Shown piece after piece: positions 32,116 to 52,249 of a stretch of 64,000 nucleotides of DNA. The notes below the pieces were generated by a model. That model made no database searches and had not been told where the DNA came from. It saw nothing but the letters and a program-made list of their open reading frames with translations. How positions within the stretch are numbered: position 1 is the first letter of the stretch; each line of letters opens with the position of its first letter. A program made the translations under genes and the position numbers. Source of the DNA: Cloacibacillus evryensis DSM 19522 (GTDB lineage: Bacteria; Synergistota; Synergistia; Synergistales; Synergistaceae); NCBI RefSeq assembly GCF_000585335.1, contig NZ_KK073872.1:192001-256000 (forward strand), in the 5' to 3' direction.

Positions 32116-32246
32116 GTAAATCGGCGTTTAGACGTGCCGGATGCTAAATAACTTGCCCTCTGAGTACCGGAGCCGTATTGGTCATACGGCGAGGACACTC
32201 AGAGGGCAAGTTATGACGCAGACGGCGCGTATAAACGCCGATTTAC
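32116..32246 (-). repeat. RPT1 copy 1: inverted-tip element with long hairpin
   Basis: 131 bp. Perfect 15-bp tips GTAAATCGGCGTTTA (32116-32130) and its complement (32232-32246). Inside is a perfect 18-bp stem ATAACTTGCCCTCTGAGT (32148-32165) with 32197-32214, capped by CCGTAT/ATACGG (32173-32189). It begins 4 bp after the stop of the patatin gene. Read in that gene's direction the hairpin is followed by TTATTT, so it can end that transcript. Confidence 0.9.
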
Positions 32247-32250
32247 AGGT

Positions 32251-34665
32251 TTAAGGAAGAGGGCCGTCCCAGAACCGCGGCACTCCGATGGTATAGCCTA
32301 TCGTGAAACCGCCGTCATCGTCGTAGACGAATACCAGTTTGCTGCTGAAGTTGTTCGTCGGGATGGACAGCGCCGCGCCCACCTCCCAGCGGCTGTCGGC
32401 GTTCTTCCAGTCGTACATGGTCTGTCCGTAGTTGCCGAATATCTCCACGTTCACTCCGCCCCACCACGAGCGGGTGAATACTCGTTCTATTCCAAGGTGG
32501 AGCCAGTAAGCCTGGTCCCCTACCAGCGGGTGCTGCCCGAGGCTGTAGAGCTCTTCGCGCGTGCCGAGCATCGCCGCGTAGGCGAGGCTGTCGGCATCTC
32601 CCGTTTTGAGGCCGCCGGCAAAGATCACCTTACCCATCTTCAGGAATGGGACGTAGGTACGGAATTGGGTGTTCGAGACCACGTTATGATCTATCGGGAA
32701 CCAGAGGTCGCTCATAACGACCATCCCCTTCGTCGGCAGTATAGGGTCGTCAAGCGTGTTGAAGCTGAACGTAAAGTATGGGCCGTGATCGTTGATCGTA
32801 TCATTGCCGAGCGAGGTGACGCGCTGCGCTCCGTAGCCGAGGCCTACGCGCAAACGTCCGTTTAGCTTTTTGTACCAGGCGGCTTTTGCCGTATACCGCT
32901 CAAATTCGGCGTTCCCGTAATTATATGGCTCGTACTCTTCCCGGCGTCCCGCGAGCACGAGTCCCCACTGGGAATCTTTCTCGTCCTCCACCGTGAAGTA
33001 GCGCATCATCGCGCCCCAGGTGGTGCCAAAGCGGAACTCGAGCGAGGCGGAATCTCCCGCCATGAGGGTGTCGTGCACCACCGCGGAGAGCGAGATCCAG
33101 CGATTCCAGTAAAGGTTGCTCGCATATCCGTCTACGCCAAATTCATATTTCGCGGGCCGTTCTATCTGGAAGATGACGGCGACCGAGCCGCGCGAGATGT
33201 TCTCCGTGCGTCCGTCGACAGACTTTATGTCGTCGCGCGTTGATATCTGGGTCACTGTGTCCGCCACGAGCCTCATATCTAGCGGCTTGCCGATCCAGTC
33301 TTCGTACTTTTCATGCAGCTCCTCGGCAACTCCCTCAGGGACCCCCTCGAAGCGCACCTCGGCGACGACGGGGGGGCCGTACCTCCTGGTTCGCTCCACT
33401 CTGCTGTGATCCCAGGTATGGCATTTTTCTTCGACAAGTTTCTTCAGCTCGGGGACCTTTTCCTCGGCGGCTTCCATCCCTTTGTCGATTATCTTGTCAT
33501 AGCCTCCTGAGGCGAAGGTACTGAACCCGCTCACCTCGGGGGTGATGACAAGGTCGGCGGCTTCCACGTTTTGGCGGATCTGCTGCACCATGAGAATATC
33601 CAGCGTCTGCGCCGCGACGTCGAACATGGTGCGGAAGTTCTCGTTTTTCTTTGTAATATCCTCCGGAGAGAGGTTGACGGCGACGATCGGATGTCCCGGG
33701 AATATCTTTTTCGCCTCGAGTACCGGCAGGTTGGCCTTCAGGCCGCCGTCGACCAGGAGCATGCCGTTCATCGGCCAGGGGTCGAAGACGACGGGTATCG
33801 ACATCGAGGCGCGCAGCGCGGAAGCCAGGTTGCCGTTGCGCAGTATGACGGTGTCGCCGTTCCCCAGATTCGTAGCCACCGCGGCAAAGGGGATCGGAAG
33901 GTGGTCGAAGTCCGTCACCGAAACGTGGGAGGTAAGGTCGCTGAGGAAGGCGTAGAGGTCTTTCGCGTTGAGGGCTCCGAGGCGTCCCTGCTCGTTTTTA
34001 TTTTTGTCTATCGTAAAGGAGAACAGCGAATCGCCTGGGACGGCCGGTTTGTTATAGCCGTTTATGAGGTCGCTCCTGTTTCGCCCCGACATTATCTCCA
34101 TGAGGTCAACCTTTGACAGCACCTCGCGCATATCCTCAGGCGTGCGTCCCGAGGCGTAAAGGCCGCCCATTATCGAGCCCATGCTGGTGCCGATTATGGC
34201 GGCCACGGGGATTTTTTCGCGTTCAAGGACCTCGAACACGCCGAGGTGCGAGAGCCCTTTCATGCCGCCGCCGCAAAGGACCAGCACGACGCCCTCTTTA
34301 TGAGGGAATCCCCAGCTCTGCATGTGTGCCCGCGTCTCGGGACTGTCCCGCTCAAATTGCGCGCGCGCCGCCCCCTGTTCGCCTTGGCGAACGGTTAAAA
34401 CTTCCTCTGGGGGCAAGCCTGCGGATGCGTCTGCCGCGTGCGCCGCCCCCTGTTCGCCCTGGCGAACAGTTAAAACTTCCTCCGGGGGCAAGCCCGCGGA
34501 TGCGTCTGCCGCGTGCGCCGCCCCCTGTTCGCCCTGGCGAACAGTTAAAACTTCCTCCGGGGGCAAGCCTGCGGATGCGTCTGCCGCCCCGGCCCAATTT
34601 GTCACCGTAAGGAGGATCAAAAACATGTATAAAATAATTTTATTCTTAAAAATTTGCTTCATCAT
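32251..34665 (-). CDS. Patatin-like phospholipase fused to POTRA and outer-membrane barrel (type Vd autotransporter)
   Basis: Protein of 804 residues. Signal peptide (about 1-27), three tandem 25-residue repeats starting ADASAGLPPEEVLTVRQGEQ (about 28-102), a patatin domain (about 125-320) with oxyanion VLCGGGMKGLSHLG, nucleophile GTSMGS and Asp in LLVDGGLKANLPV, then a POTRA-like segment (about 415-480) and a C-terminal 16-strand-type beta-barrel ending IGYTIGVPRFWDGPLP. This is the PlpD architecture: the lipase is carried to the surface by its own barrel. Likely a phospholipase A at the cell surface. The stop codon is 4 bp from RPT1 copy 1. AAAGGTGG precedes the start. Confidence 0.92.
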   Translation of the reverse strand: MMKQIFKNKIILYMFLILLTVTNWAGAADASAGLPPEEVLTVRQGEQGAAHAADASAGLPPEEVLTVRQGEQGAAHAADASAGLPPEEVLTVRQGEQGAARAQFERDSPETRAHMQSWGFPHKEGVVLVLCGGGMKGLSHLGVFEVLEREKIPVAAIIGTSMGSIMGGLYASGRTPEDMREVLSKVDLMEIMSGRNRSDLINGYNKPAVPGDSLFSFTIDKNKNEQGRLGALNAKDLYAFLSDLTSHVSVTDFDHLPIPFAAVATNLGNGDTVILRNGNLASALRASMSIPVVFDPWPMNGMLLVDGGLKANLPVLEAKKIFPGHPIVAVNLSPEDITKKNENFRTMFDVAAQTLDILMVQQIRQNVEAADLVITPEVSGFSTFASGGYDKIIDKGMEAAEEKVPELKKLVEEKCHTWDHSRVERTRRYGPPVVAEVRFEGVPEGVAEELHEKYEDWIGKPLDMRLVADTVTQISTRDDIKSVDGRTENISRGSVAVIFQIERPAKYEFGVDGYASNLYWNRWISLSAVVHDTLMAGDSASLEFRFGTTWGAMMRYFTVEDEKDSQWGLVLAGRREEYEPYNYGNAEFERYTAKAAWYKKLNGRLRVGLGYGAQRVTSLGNDTINDHGPYFTFSFNTLDDPILPTKGMVVMSDLWFPIDHNVVSNTQFRTYVPFLKMGKVIFAGGLKTGDADSLAYAAMLGTREELYSLGQHPLVGDQAYWLHLGIERVFTRSWWGGVNVEIFGNYGQTMYDWKNADSRWEVGAALSIPTNNFSSKLVFVYDDDGGFTIGYTIGVPRFWDGPLP
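34367..34591 (-). repeat. Three tandem 75-bp repeats inside the patatin gene
   Basis: Units start at 34367, 34442 and 34517 with a 75-bp period and only a few substitutions; each encodes 25 residues (starting ADASAGLPPEEVL). Near-identity at DNA level points to recent amplification and likely copy-number variation between strains. Confidence 0.9.
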
Positions 34666-43358: not shown

Positions 43359-43555
43359 TAAACGCCGATCTACGTCTGGCGAGGGGAAAATAAACAGCGA
43401 TTTAGCGCCCTTCCGTCGCTCCGGCCTCCGAGCCGGAGCCGGGTGGCGTTGGTTTTTGCTTTACAATCGATGTTGGAACAAACCTGAAGCCACTGGATGC
43501 CGGGTCAAGCCCGGCATGACAAGATAAATCGCGGTTTATCTTTCCCCGCAATCGC
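43359..43555. repeat. RPT2 copy A: second inverted-tip element, fused to RPT1 copy 2
   Basis: Starts with an RPT1-like tip (TAAACGCCGATCTAC) and ATAAACAGCGATTTA (43390-43404), ends with TAAATCGCGGTTTATC (43525-43540) and the AATCGC lead-in to RPT1, so the ends are inverted copies of one another. Inside are the hairpins GCTCCGGC/GCCGGAGC (near 43418-43439) and TGCCGGG/CCCGGCA (43498-43517). About 150 bp between the inner tips. No coding sequence. Confidence 0.75.
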
Positions 43556-43685
43556 GTAAATCGGCGTTTAGACGTGCGAATAACGAAATAACCGAGGGCC
43601 TGCCAAGCGGAGGCGCACTAGTGTGCGGTGAGCATTGGCAGGCCCTCGGTTATGAAGTTAGTCGTGCGTATAAACGCCGATTTAT
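43556..43685 (-). repeat. RPT1 copy 2
   Basis: Tips GTAAATCGGCGTTTA (43556-43570) and its complement ending 43684/43685. Perfect 19-bp stem ATAACCGAGGGCCTGCCAA (43588-43606) with 43635-43653. The apical stem is CGCAC/GTGCG instead of CCGTAT/ATACGG, so pairing is kept while the sequence differs from other copies. It touches the stop codon (43685-43687) of the YitT gene. Confidence 0.9.
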
Positions 43686-44587
43686 CAGATGTTGCGCCAG
43701 CGCTTAAACCCCTTGCCGACCACTTCGTTGGCTTCGGTGACGACCATGAACGAGCCGGGGAAATGTTCGGCGAGGAAACGTTTGAGCTCAACCACCTGCC
43801 GCGGCATCAGCAGGCACATTATCGTGAAGCCGTCGCGGCGCTTGTAGCCTCCCTCGCTTGACAGCAGCGTGCAGCCGCGGCCAAGCTTTCTGTTGATGAA
43901 TTCAACTACGGCGTCGGTGTTGGAGGCGACGATGAAGACGAGGCGGCGCTTGTCGAAAGAGGCAAGTACGCTGTCCATCGTCATGCCGCAGATGTAGCAG
44001 GAGATAAATCCGTACATCACCTTTTCCAGGCCGATGACGCTGAAGGAAACGGCGAGGATGACCATGTTGAAGTAGAAGCTGAGCCGCCCCACCTCCATGC
44101 CGTAGCGTTTTTTAAGCACGGTGATCGCGATATCGAGGCCGCCGGCGCTGATGCCCTCACGGTAGAGCAGGCCGATGCCGAGTCCTTTGATCACGCCGCC
44201 GGCCACCGCGACAAGGAAGATGTCGTCCATCATCGGGAAGCTGATGGTCTGGAGCAGATCGAGTACCGCCGAAAGCACGAAAGCGTTGATGACCGTCCAT
44301 ATAAGGAAGCGCTTGGAGAGTGTTTTCGCGCCCCATATCAGCAGGATGATATTCAATATCAGCAGGACATAGGCGGGGTTGAACCCCAGAGTGTATTTAA
44401 GCAGCACCGCGATGCCCATGACGCCCTGGTCGGCAAATTTATATGGTATGGTAAATCCGACGACGCCCACCGCGTAGATGACGATGGCGGCCATGGATAT
44501 CAGCATGGTCTTCCACTCGGAGAAGAACAAAAGCTGCGCCTTCCTGTAGAGATGTTTCCATTTTATTTGATCGATCCTGTATTCCAT
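43685..44587 (-). CDS. YitT-family membrane protein
   Basis: Inner-membrane protein of about 300 residues: six hydrophobic segments (from MLISMAAIVIYAVGVVGFTI) and a C-terminal DUF2179 domain (about residues 220-300, KRRLVFIVASNTDAVVEFI, RGCTLLSSEGGYKRR). The family is widespread and its function is not established. ATG 44587 has AGGAG upstream, so the longer frame from 44611 is rejected. Its stop codon abuts RPT1 copy 2. Confidence 0.9.
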   Translation of the reverse strand: MEYRIDQIKWKHLYRKAQLLFFSEWKTMLISMAAIVIYAVGVVGFTIPYKFADQGVMGIAVLLKYTLGFNPAYVLLILNIILLIWGAKTLSKRFLIWTVINAFVLSAVLDLLQTISFPMMDDIFLVAVAGGVIKGLGIGLLYREGISAGGLDIAITVLKKRYGMEVGRLSFYFNMVILAVSFSVIGLEKVMYGFISCYICGMTMDSVLASFDKRRLVFIVASNTDAVVEFINRKLGRGCTLLSSEGGYKRRDGFTIMCLLMPRQVVELKRFLAEHFPGSFMVVTEANEVVGKGFKRWRNI

Positions 44588-44775
44588 TTCTATTCTCCTC
44601 GCTGAACTCACTTACTACGGCCTATTATATCCGATTTACCGTTTTTATTTACTATTACCAGTCATCTTTTACAACCCGCCGTTTTACTATAAAGAATTTA
44701 TATCTTTCGCCAATTAAGGTATTGCATGCTGTGATAAAATGTATTGTGGAAATTATTTTGGCAGGAGGAATAGAA

Positions 44776-45210: not shown

Positions 45211-45275
45211 AAACCGCGGTTTATCTTCCACTCCCAATCGCGTAAATCGCAGTTTATCTTTTCCCCGCCCGAAGG
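45211..45275. repeat. Two RPT2-type tips in tandem beside RPT1 copy 3
   Basis: CCGCGGTTTATCTTCC then AATCGCGTAAATCGCAGTTT and ATCTTTTCCCCGCCC: two degenerate copies of the lead-in sequence seen at the other loci, starting 2 bp after the stop of the small unknown gene. Confidence 0.6.
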
Positions 45276-45547
45276 AAATCGGCGTTTATAAGCAGTGAAC
45301 CAAAACGCCGGTTTTGCGTTTTGTGTGAATCGCTTAATTTGTTCACCAGACGTGCCGGATGCTAAATAACTTTGGGGTCTGCGCCCGGAGCCGTATATTA
45401 ATACGGCGATTGCAAGGCAATGTTCCCCGCCATTGGCGGGGAACTCTTTCAAATTATCCATATTGCCGCAGCATGCGGGTGCGTTTGCCGCAGGACGCCA
45501 GACCCCGAAGTTATGACGCAGACGGCGCGTCTAAACGCCGATTTACA
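45276..45547 (-). repeat. RPT1 copy 3, enlarged by two insertions
   Basis: Tips AAATCGGCGTTTA (45276-45288) and TAAACGCCGATTTAC (45533-45547). The arms ATAACTTTGGGGTCTG (45366-45381) and its partner near 45500-45515 pair with one wobble, and the apical CCGTAT/ATACGG is present. An extra segment of about 60 bp sits between the left tip and GACGTGCC, and an extra segment of about 85-90 bp sits beside the apical stem (with GTTCCCCGCC/GGCGGGGAAC, 45422-45444). The element supplies the TAA stop codon of the universal stress protein gene. Confidence 0.85.
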
Positions 45548-46007
45548 TGTGGCGATAGAGAAAAACCGAACACTTCGCCTGATTTACGACCTTCAGCGCG
45601 GTGCTGCCGAGGATCACGCGTTCGAGCGTCGTGTAGCCCTTGTTTCCGATCACGATGATGTCATAGCGGTCACTGTCGGCGACGCGCACGATCTCGCTTC
45701 CGGGGTTGTCCGCCACGTTTACGCGGATGTCGTATTTATGGCCGTCAGGCAGAGCGCCATACTTTGCCTTGATTTCGTCTGTCAGCTTGTTGACCTCCTG
45801 GGAGGCCGCCTCTCTGACCTTCTCCTCCGTTTTGCGGGCATCCGGCGTGATGTAAAAATGCATGTTATAGCCCTCGAGCGGAGAGGCCATCGCGGGAACA
45901 ATGTGAAGGAAGGTTACGTCCGCCCCCAGCCTCTGCGCGTAATGATAGCCGTTAAAGGCCGCCTCACGGCCGACGGGGCTGAAATCCACTGCGATCAACA
46001 TTTTCAT
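45543..46007 (-). CDS. Universal stress protein (UspA family)
   Basis: Cytoplasmic protein of 154 residues. N-terminal KMLIAVDFSPVGREAAF, and the ATP-binding motif G-x2-G-x9-G-S/T is present as GNKGYTTLERVILGSTA, so it should bind ATP. Such proteins rise in stasis and stress. The stop codon (TAA, 45543-45545) lies within the tip of RPT1 copy 3: the element either inserted at this exact point or replaced the original 3' end. The gene is divergent from the comB-like gene. Confidence 0.92.
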   Translation of the reverse strand: MKMLIAVDFSPVGREAAFNGYHYAQRLGADVTFLHIVPAMASPLEGYNMHFYITPDARKTEEKVREAASQEVNKLTDEIKAKYGALPDGHKYDIRVNVADNPGSEIVRVADSDRYDIIVIGNKGYTTLERVILGSTALKVVNQAKCSVFLYRHM

Positions 46008-50402: not shown

Positions 50403-51308
50403 TTGGATTTAAATTTTCAGGAGATAACACTGGAAGAGGCGCCCAGATATATCGCGCATTGGAACATGTGCGAACAGCGCACCTCGGACTATTGTTTCCC
50501 GGTTATATGGAGCCTGGGCGCGGACTTCGGCACGAAGCTCGCCTATGACGAGAGCACGGACCTGTATTGGCTGCACCAAAGCAAAGTGGGGCTCGCCGAC
50601 CTCGCGCCGGTCGGAAACTGGCGGCGGGACGACTGGCCGCGGATACTGCGCGAACGCTACGGGGACGAAATGGAGTTTTTCCTCGTTCCGGAAAAGCTCG
50701 CGGAGATATGGTGCTCCGAACTTGCCGGCAAGGCGAACGTCGAGGTTGTGGACGACCGCGGGACATGGGAGTACCTCTACAACATACGGGAGCTGGCGAC
50801 GCTTGCGGGAAACAAATATATGAAGAAGCGCAACCGCGTCAACCAGTTCAGAAAGAACTACGACTACGTCTACGAACCGATGACCGACGGGCTGCTGCCG
50901 GAGGTGGTGGACTTTCAGTATTCGTGGTGCCAGGTGAACCACTGCGGCACGACTGCCGGACTGATGCAGGAAAATCACGCTATCCAGAAGATATTGCAGA
51001 ACTGGAACCGCATACCGAACCTCTGCGGCGGCGTGATCAAGATCAAGGATCAGATCGTCGCCTACACGATCGGCGAGCTCGCCGGAGATATGCTCGTCGT
51101 CCATTATGAGAAGGCGAGCCTCGAATACGGCGCGGCATATCAGGTGATAAACAGGGAGTTCCTTTCACACATCATCGGGCTCCATCCGGAACTTGAGATC
51201 GTCAACCGGGAGGAAGACATGAACGATCCCGGCCTGCGCGCGGCGAAGATGTCCTACATGCCGATCGGCTTCCTCAAAGAGTGCAGGGTAGAAATCAAGT
51301 TTATATAA
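50403..51308 (+). CDS. DUF2156 (LPG-synthase-like acyltransferase fold) protein
   Basis: Cytoplasmic protein of 301 residues with the double-GNAT fold of DUF2156, related to the catalytic part of phosphatidylglycerol lysyltransferase (MprF) but without its membrane part. Conserved [20 protein letters not shown] in the middle and [19 protein letters not shown] near the end. It would transfer an acyl or aminoacyl group; the substrate is unknown. Start is TTG 50403 with GGAGGT seven bases upstream. Confidence 0.85.
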
Positions 51309-51361
51309 AAAGTTATGGTAAAATTGCCAAGTCAGATCTAAAAATGAGACGGAGGATTACA

Positions 51362-51925
51362 ATGATGAAAATATTGGCACTCAGCGCAATGGTGGCGGCG
51401 GCGGTAATGTTCCCCTTCGCGGCGAAGCAGGCGGAGGCGGCGGACGCCGCGGAAGCCGCGCCTAAACGTCAGGTCGCTACCTTCGAGACGAACTACGGCA
51501 CATTCAAGATCGAACTCTTCAACGATCTCGCGCCGAAGACGGTGAAAAACTTCGTCGACCTCGCGCAGAAGGGCTACTACAACGGCCTCTCCTTCCACCG
51601 CGTCATCGATCAGTTCATGATCCAGGGCGGCTGCCCGAAGGGCAACGGCACAGGCGGCCCCGGCTACAACATCCCCGACGAATTCGGCAAGGGCCTCAAG
51701 CATGACAAACCGGGGATACTCTCCATGGCCAACGCCGGCCCCAATACCGGCGGTTCGCAGTTCTTCATCACACTCGTGCCGACGCCCTGGCTTGACGGCA
51801 AACATGCCATCTTCGGACATGTGACGGCGGGTATGGACGTCGTGGAAAAGATCGGCAAGCTCCCGACCGATTCGATGGACAGGCCGCTTAAGAAAGTGGT
51901 TATGGAGAAGGTCACTATCCACTAG
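51362..51925 (+). CDS. Exported cyclophilin-type peptidyl-prolyl isomerase
   Basis: Protein of about 187 residues with a signal peptide ([19 protein letters not shown] to QAEA) and a cyclophilin domain. [13 protein letters not shown] holds the catalytic Arg, followed by [27 protein letters not shown] and [13 protein letters not shown]. It speeds proline isomerisation in secreted proteins. GGAGG lies upstream of ATG 51362; the frame from 51281 overlaps the previous gene and is rejected. RPT1 copy 4 begins on the next base after its TAG stop. Confidence 0.93.
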
Positions 51926-52046
51926 GTAAATCGGCGTTTATAAGCGCGATTTGCGTCATAAAACGGGGGCTCCGAATCCTCGCCGTATACAAATACGGCT
52001 CCGGTATCGGAGCCCCCATTTTATTTAGCAACTCGCACGTCTAAAC
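51926..52046 (+). repeat. RPT1 copy 4
   Basis: 121 bp. Perfect 15-bp tips (51926-51940 and 52032-52046). Arms ATAAAACGGGGGCTCCGA (51958-51975) and 52007-52024 pair over 18 bp with one mismatch; the apical stem GCCGTAT/ATACGGC (51982-51999) has a four-base loop. In the direction of the cyclophilin gene it is followed by ATTTTATTTAGC, a terminator-like U-tract. Confidence 0.9.
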
Positions 52047-52249
52047 GCCGATTTACTCGATTGGGAGGGAAGATAAACAGCGATTTAGCGCTCTGCCCTC
52101 CCGTCGCTCCGGCCTCCGAGCCGGAGCCAAGTGGCGTTGGTTTTACATGCGCTGGTGGAGCAAAAACATAGAGCCGCTTGGCCCCGGGTCAAGCCCGGGG
52201 CGACGGAGTACCAGTGCCGGCATGACAAGATAAATCGCTATTTATTCTT
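52047..52249. repeat. RPT2 copy B, attached to RPT1 copy 4
   Basis: Begins with the linker TCGATTGGGAGGGAA and GATAAACAGCGATTTA (52072-52087) and ends with TAAATCGCTATTTAT (52231-52245), inverted versions of one another. It shares with copy A the CTCCGGCCTCCGAGCCGGAG hairpin and the GGGTCAAGCCC hairpin, in the same order. The linker to RPT1 is the mirror of that in copy A. Confidence 0.75.

Follow-up and report, generated by a model that had tools for sequence, protein, structure and literature searches.

Hairpin Elements in the Window

The window analyzed here, a 64,000-nt stretch from Cloacibacillus evryensis DSM 19522, contains four copies of a repeat that a first-pass annotation had named RPT1. 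A gene for a cyclophilin-like peptidyl-prolyl isomerase (51281–51925, plus strand; ORF ending ...MEKVTIH*, named from reading the sequence) finishes with a TAG stop codon that ends at 51925, one base ahead of the element at 51926–52056. The folded strand of this copy is the minus strand. Its arms lie at 51958–51975 and 52007–52024, its apical block at 51976–52006 and its outer stems at 51926–51957 and 52025–52056. The element had been placed correctly, but with an end at 52046, which cut off 10 nt of the tip.

The three other copies are on the plus strand. The copy at 32116–32246 (arm type TTGCCCTCTGAGT) has tips at 32116–32130 and 32232–32246, a 3x3 loop with TAA (32145–32147) facing GAC (32215–32217), arms at 32148–32165 and 32197–32214 and an apical block at 32167–32195. 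Its 3' tip is 5 nt from the stop codon of an 804-aa ORF (32251–34665, minus strand). The copy at 43556–43685 (arm type CCGAGGGCCTGCCAA) does present the two-sided change of the apical stem reported at first pass (CGCAC/GTGCG), as well as an internal loop with GAA facing GAA, and its last base is overlapped by the stop codon of a 308-aa ORF (43685–44611, minus strand). The fourth copy (arm type TTTGGGGTCTG) had been assigned to 45276–45547. An element is present there, but its exact span is 45334–45546 and it is interrupted by two insertions, one of about 83 nt beside the apical loop and one of about 55 nt which has moved the left tip to 45274–45293. The tip of this copy supplies the TAA stop codon (TAAATCGG) of a 154-aa ORF (45543–46007, minus strand). 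All four loci are near-perfect hairpins of about 130 nt, and in all four the hairpin foot is at a stop codon.

The module of about 83 nt (TTGCAAGGCAA..GCCGCA) was found at the identical spot beside the apical loop in several arm types of both congeners: in the window at ~45334–45546, at L013, at locus L177 of G001, and in the own genome (G000:C1) at 81762, 2574862, 31407, 2707975, 2759185, 40234, 37927 and 3396704. Also, the gene-distal side of the elements is a mosaic of other repeats (GATAAATCGCNGTTTATCTTTCC..CAATCGC; CTCCCTCGCCGAGGGAGG; GCACTGTTTGGCGC..GCGCTAAACAGTGC), as in the flanks of L001, L004, L016 and L017 and at 43391–43540 and 52074–52240 of the window. The hairpin arms of these repeats also seem to covary between copies.

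Architecture and Pairing

We defined the + strand as the one reading CCGGAG..CGAGGA. From the base up, this strand folds into a 15-bp tip, a 1x1 G.A mismatch, 8 bp including a conserved T.G, a mismatch zone and 3–4 bp. Above these come a 3x3 loop in which TAA faces GAC, the 18-bp arm and 2 bp (CC/GG); a 3x2 loop with GGA opposite GA and an apical stem of 7 bp complete the hairpin. Single-strand folding z-scores ranged between -12 and -16 for representative copies, and no shuffle equaled them. Among 13 distinct copies, 97.2% of the pair cells were standard pairs and both sides had changed at 27 of 53 pairs, a value reached by none of 500 shuffles; sliding the partner by 1–3 nt lowered pairing to 33–40%. 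The proposal that each opposite arm always matches its own partner is thus well founded.

Other parts of the initial description needed correction. The ATAA/TTAT flank is indeed constant, but the arms, given as 14–19 bp, are 18 bp long with about 14 varying. The arms vary freely, as described, but they are not unrelated, as further copies show intermediate arm types and stepwise change. The tips, described as recurrent, covary together with the outer stem (GACGTGCCGG/.. vs GAAGTGCGAG/..; TTTA/TAAA vs CGAA/TTCG). A kink-turn reading of the GGA/GA loop was rejected because the spacing, judged by eye, is wrong. In the genus of G008 (L330, L331, L332, L336), GAA/GAA or GA/GA takes the place of GGA/GA in the apical loop, and the two sides of the 3x3 loop are exchanged relative to the apex (GAC left, TAA right). 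In the same genus, one copy (L330, 1127–1260) carries tips from two different subfamilies. Another element (L331, 996–1130) lies within or beside a degenerate 5S rRNA-like sequence.

Gradual Compensation of the Arms

The arms of 67 own-genus copies comprised 1206 cells, of which 1140 were Watson-Crick, 43 G.T and 4 A.C; the stem next to the arm contained 115 G.T and 2 A.C. When two of these copies differed at one arm pair, 53 of the 74 pairwise changes were one-sided and non-Watson-Crick, whereas about 80% of the changes were two-sided and Watson-Crick when they differed at nine or more arm pairs. Near-identical copies therefore differ mainly by single unpaired or G.T changes, and distant ones by double changes. 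Intermediates can be observed directly (gggggc/gccccc to ggtggt/accacc via gccacc), decayed and mismatched copies persist, and arm and framework can be recombined (L313).

Arm change is thus a gradual compensation under selection, which passes through wobble intermediates, and not an instant copying of one arm onto the other. The first-pass annotation had offered selection for folding or arm-to-arm templated repair. The extensive and gradual compensation, the shuffles and the slid partner strongly support the former, which proved strand-specific; the one-sided single-pair changes and the persistence of mismatched copies speak against the latter.

Strand Specificity

Own-genus stems contained 158 G.T against 6 A.C. 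The + strand folds better than its complement in 209 of 216 elements, and still does in 196 of 216 when a neutral loop takes the place of the conserved apex. Across phyla, isolated mismatches comprised 140 G.T vs 36 A.C and 116 G.A vs 17 C.T, in counts where related sequences are not independent; A.C was nearly absent from outer-stem positions 28–46. The G.T excess was observed in every group tested, the Myxococcales MAG alone having it only in the outer stem. Only one strand, reading CCGGAG..CGAGGA, is selected to fold, into an extended hairpin whose internal loops keep fixed distances, and the letters of its stems are free provided that they pair. This asymmetry fits RNA and single-stranded DNA alike. 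The folded strand, like the stop-codon position and the spread across phyla presented below, is one of three findings that the first account lacked.

Position at Gene Ends

On the 3' side of the + strand, the hairpin foot coincides with a stop codon that belongs to a gene encoded on the opposite strand. Of the 84 elements that have a gene so placed, 45 have their foot no more than 5 nt from its stop codon, a position kept although the stem half-length ranges from about 42 to 89 bp. With ORFs called mechanically, a stop codon was found within 5 nt of the right side in 54 of 190 elements and of the left side in 5 of 190; start codons were rare on either side, and all three stop codons occur at element feet. 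The folded strand is therefore the template strand of the adjacent gene, antisense to it. In Clostridium genomes, where genes were named from reading translations, elements sit between rpmC/rpsQ, rplN/rplX, rplJ/rplL (in two genomes) and nusG/rplK, that is, inside ribosomal-protein operons without evident block.

Copy Number and Distribution

A covariance model located about 60 places in the 3.49-Mb contig containing the window and 54 in a congener. Copies were also present in other genera of the family, and none were detected in those other families of the order that were sampled. The search for further copies in related genomes, suggested at first pass, thus returned many in relatives and, beyond them, in distant phyla. 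The copies fall into several arm types, which are common to both congeners, and four copies from different loci share an identical 131-bp sequence.

The apical pattern CCGGAGSCGTAN{3,9}TACGKCGAGGA occurs in more than 105 genome-contig stretches among the matches listed, for about one expected by estimate. Going by their record titles, the carriers among these listed matches include Myxococcales, Desulfobacterales, Pseudodesulfovibrio, Planctomycetota/Phycisphaerae, Spirochaetia, Nitrospira, Acidobacteria, Rokubacteria, Fermentibacteria, Clostridium, Sporomusa, Burkholderiales and others. The cross-phylum geometry was scripted from the apex outwards, as a MAFFT alignment across phyla misplaced the stems. 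Almost all matches adopt the architecture described above, each with arms of its own that match one another, and half-arm lengths are kept to within about 2 bases; a few others (e.g., L118, L126) arose by chance within genes. In 30 carrier genomes, about 230 matches were counted vs 3 for the reversed pattern, and one Myxococcales MAG (G070) alone contained 112. Several elements of this MAG (L233, L253, L256, L263) bear a second small repeat (CTGAGCCGA..ATCGAGCGG) at one internal-loop position.

The architecture around CCGGAG..CGAGGA is present in at least 10 phyla, with a patchy distribution: 2 of 250 genomes carry it in the order of G067, a Rhodoferax MAG, and 9 of 86 in that of Desulfosarcina alkanivorans. 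It was nearly absent from the E. coli, plasmid and viral sequences searched, with one good match among 72,556 plasmid records and two IMG/VR viral contigs carrying the apical pattern within hairpins (L196, L197). L197 has, by eye, phage structural-type genes.

At the gathering score, no Rfam family matched the window, nor the element at any of 17 loci in other phyla, and the only candidates, below threshold, were miRNA-like chance matches. A literature search by motif letters returned unrelated papers only. Within Rfam and the searchable literature, these results agree with the earlier statement that no such family has been described. RPT1 is apparently one lineage of an undescribed, phylum-crossing superfamily of DNA hairpins found in at least 10 bacterial phyla.

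Turnover and Possible Mobility

Ten orthologous gene ends were compared between the two congeners. Six carry different arm types in the same place and orientation, three have no element in the congener, and at the tenth the covariance model gives a match, counted without regard to arm type. Similarly, at an orthologous gene end of G008 and G026, an element directly follows the TAG codon in one genome and none is present in the other, the downstream sequences being non-homologous. Neither a target duplication nor a clean empty site was identified at the congener gene ends or between G008 and G026. Several genomes contain two or three elements in head-to-tail order, spaced by about the length of one element; among these, the copy nearest the stop codon is often, but not always, the best folded. 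Thus, copies multiply and are replaced.

We propose that these are non-autonomous palindromic elements which spread as a folded single strand, are read by their shape in trans and are set past gene ends, a reading to which we assign a probability of about one half. The element would move as a folded single strand, a putative trans-acting protein of the host or of a mobile element would recognize the hairpin by its shape, and insertion would occur just past gene ends, replacing resident copies or stacking on them. Something must recognize the shape, since it is kept while the letters change freely. Single-stranded DNA is rather likelier than RNA, as no promoter, on an unsystematic look, and no terminator of the element's own is evident and the 3' end runs into the gene. 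More speculatively, the insertion site may be determined where nascent RNA first becomes free of ribosomes (an R-loop), at the stop codon. In its widest form the proposal is a tentative one: the hairpins could represent a new class of ancient, shape-recognized mobile elements of at least 10 phyla, transposing single-stranded and inserted by an enzyme precisely at the gene 3' boundary, possibly the edge of an R-loop, with arms that would turn over since only structure is read.

Several features count against mobility: no mobilizing gene emerged from the searches below, no target duplication or clean empty site was identified, the elements are nearly absent from plasmids and viral contigs, which is unusual for a mobile element, many genomes have only 1–3 copies (strict pattern), and two Clostridium genomes keep an element at the same rplJ|rplL site. 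Among the genes beside the elements, recurrences concerned housekeeping genes only, and no candidate mobilizer emerged. The Y1 transposase domain PF01797 was found neither in the own genome, which has about 60 copies, nor in G004, with 28 matches, and the reverse transcriptase domain RVT_1 in none of the carriers G004, G008 and G015. As carriers without them exist, neither enzyme is a required partner, and a group II intron-mobilized repeat was rejected on the same absence of RVT_1. Five of the reverse-transcriptase loci of the own genome (probable group II intron; G000:C1 1290437, 1292321, 1662474, 451869 and 2348959) have an element copy no farther than about 1.1 kb away, as though the introns targeted these hairpin islands.

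Alternatively, each copy could be a cis-acting gene-end element, for example a barrier or processing site for antisense RNA entering the 3' end of the gene, selected in place and with secondary spread. The folded strand antisense to the adjacent gene, the fixed orientation, the stop-codon adjacency, the poorer folding of the sense strand and the operon sites in ribosomal-protein genes without evident block all agree with such a role, as do highly diverged Desulfosarcina copies that are each internally compensated. Also, the same rplJ|rplL site kept in two Clostridium genomes suggests long retention, i.e., a local function. However, the recent amplification of identical copies, the replacement of arm types, the stacking and the patchiness need a spreading process, and freshly mutated copies persist uncompensated. 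We therefore consider this explanation rather unlikely, and mobile spread and a local role at gene ends may both hold.

An ordinary MITE of a DDE transposase, with long palindromic terminal inverted repeats, would account for the size, copy number, intergenic location and TIR-like tips. It seems very improbable, as the tips are kept only within a genome and vary across phyla more than most other parts, in contrast to the conserved center, the excess of G.T over A.C and of G.A over C.T is senseless for duplex recognition, no target duplication was seen and the orientation to genes is fixed. There is similarly little chance that the elements are intrinsic transcription terminators diverged in parallel, in spite of their position just after stop codons and of the A-tract and T-tract flanks around the apical hairpin in some copies. 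T-runs, assessed by eye, occur in some Clostridium and Desulfobacterales copies and are mostly missing from own-genus ones; moreover, the hairpins are far longer than terminators, the asymmetric apical block is conserved across phyla, folding is selected on the antisense strand and elements are present inside operons. Finally, palindromes are prone to template switching, which would keep arms always matched without selection, but this mutational artifact is already contradicted by the persistence of fixed mismatches, the one-sided changes within subfamilies and the strand-specific wobble asymmetry, and can be given almost no weight.

Comparison with Known Systems

As mainly their shape is conserved, RPT1 elements escape sequence-based repeat searches, so that a whole superfamily could have gone unnoticed in many phyla. 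The strand-specific compensation and the placement at stop codons raise a testable question: what protein recognizes the hairpin, and for what reason at the ends of genes? Such recognition would extend the shape-based kind, as in attC and REP, to a hairpin of far larger size and greater freedom.

In attC sites, structure is conserved over sequence, the bottom strand is folded, the site lies just after a stop codon and tandem arrangement is possible. RPT1 presents the same disposition, with a folded strand that serves as template for the preceding gene and a site after the stop codon, although this is an analogy only. Judged by the described features of attC, the conserved block of RPT1 is apical and not basal, no fixed R/L box (GTTRRRY/RYYYAAC) was seen at the base, and the elements appear to follow housekeeping genes, including those of ribosomal-protein operons, and not to form cassette arrays.

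REP/REPIN sequences with their RAYT (Y1 tyrosine) partner are likewise intergenic hairpins, usually 3' of genes, non-autonomous and recognized as single strands with mismatches. REPs measure 20–40 bp and carry a GTAG or CGTC tag (PMC3733652). The RPT1 family is about 90–160 bp long, with a conserved apical block, free arms and no Y1 transposase in the host genome. No GTAG/CGTC tag was found at the hairpin foot, which varies freely (TGTCC, GTAAATC, GAATCG, GCAATTG).

The BRE of Bordetella and relatives is a chromosomal intergenic repeat of about 90 bp, which forms tandem arrays, may overlap ORF ends and is transcribed (PMC3110155). By this description, the RPT1 family shares its tandem, chromosomal and gene-end-overlapping behavior, but BRE is described as sequence-conserved within one class, and the RPT1 apical pattern reaches only the 2 of 250 genomes given above for the order of the Rhodoferax MAG.

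ERIC, Correia/NEMIS, bcr1, Chunjie and other bacterial MITEs are also multi-copy palindromic intergenic elements. Each is restricted to narrow taxa, and for the most part their sequence is conserved and they have TIRs and target duplications (PMC10969869, in part general knowledge); unlike the RPT1 family, they are not arm-variable with a fixed geometry across phyla. The Rickettsia palindromic elements, repeats of about 150 bp (PMC10969869), are inserted within reading frames, whereas RPT1 is found at gene ends.
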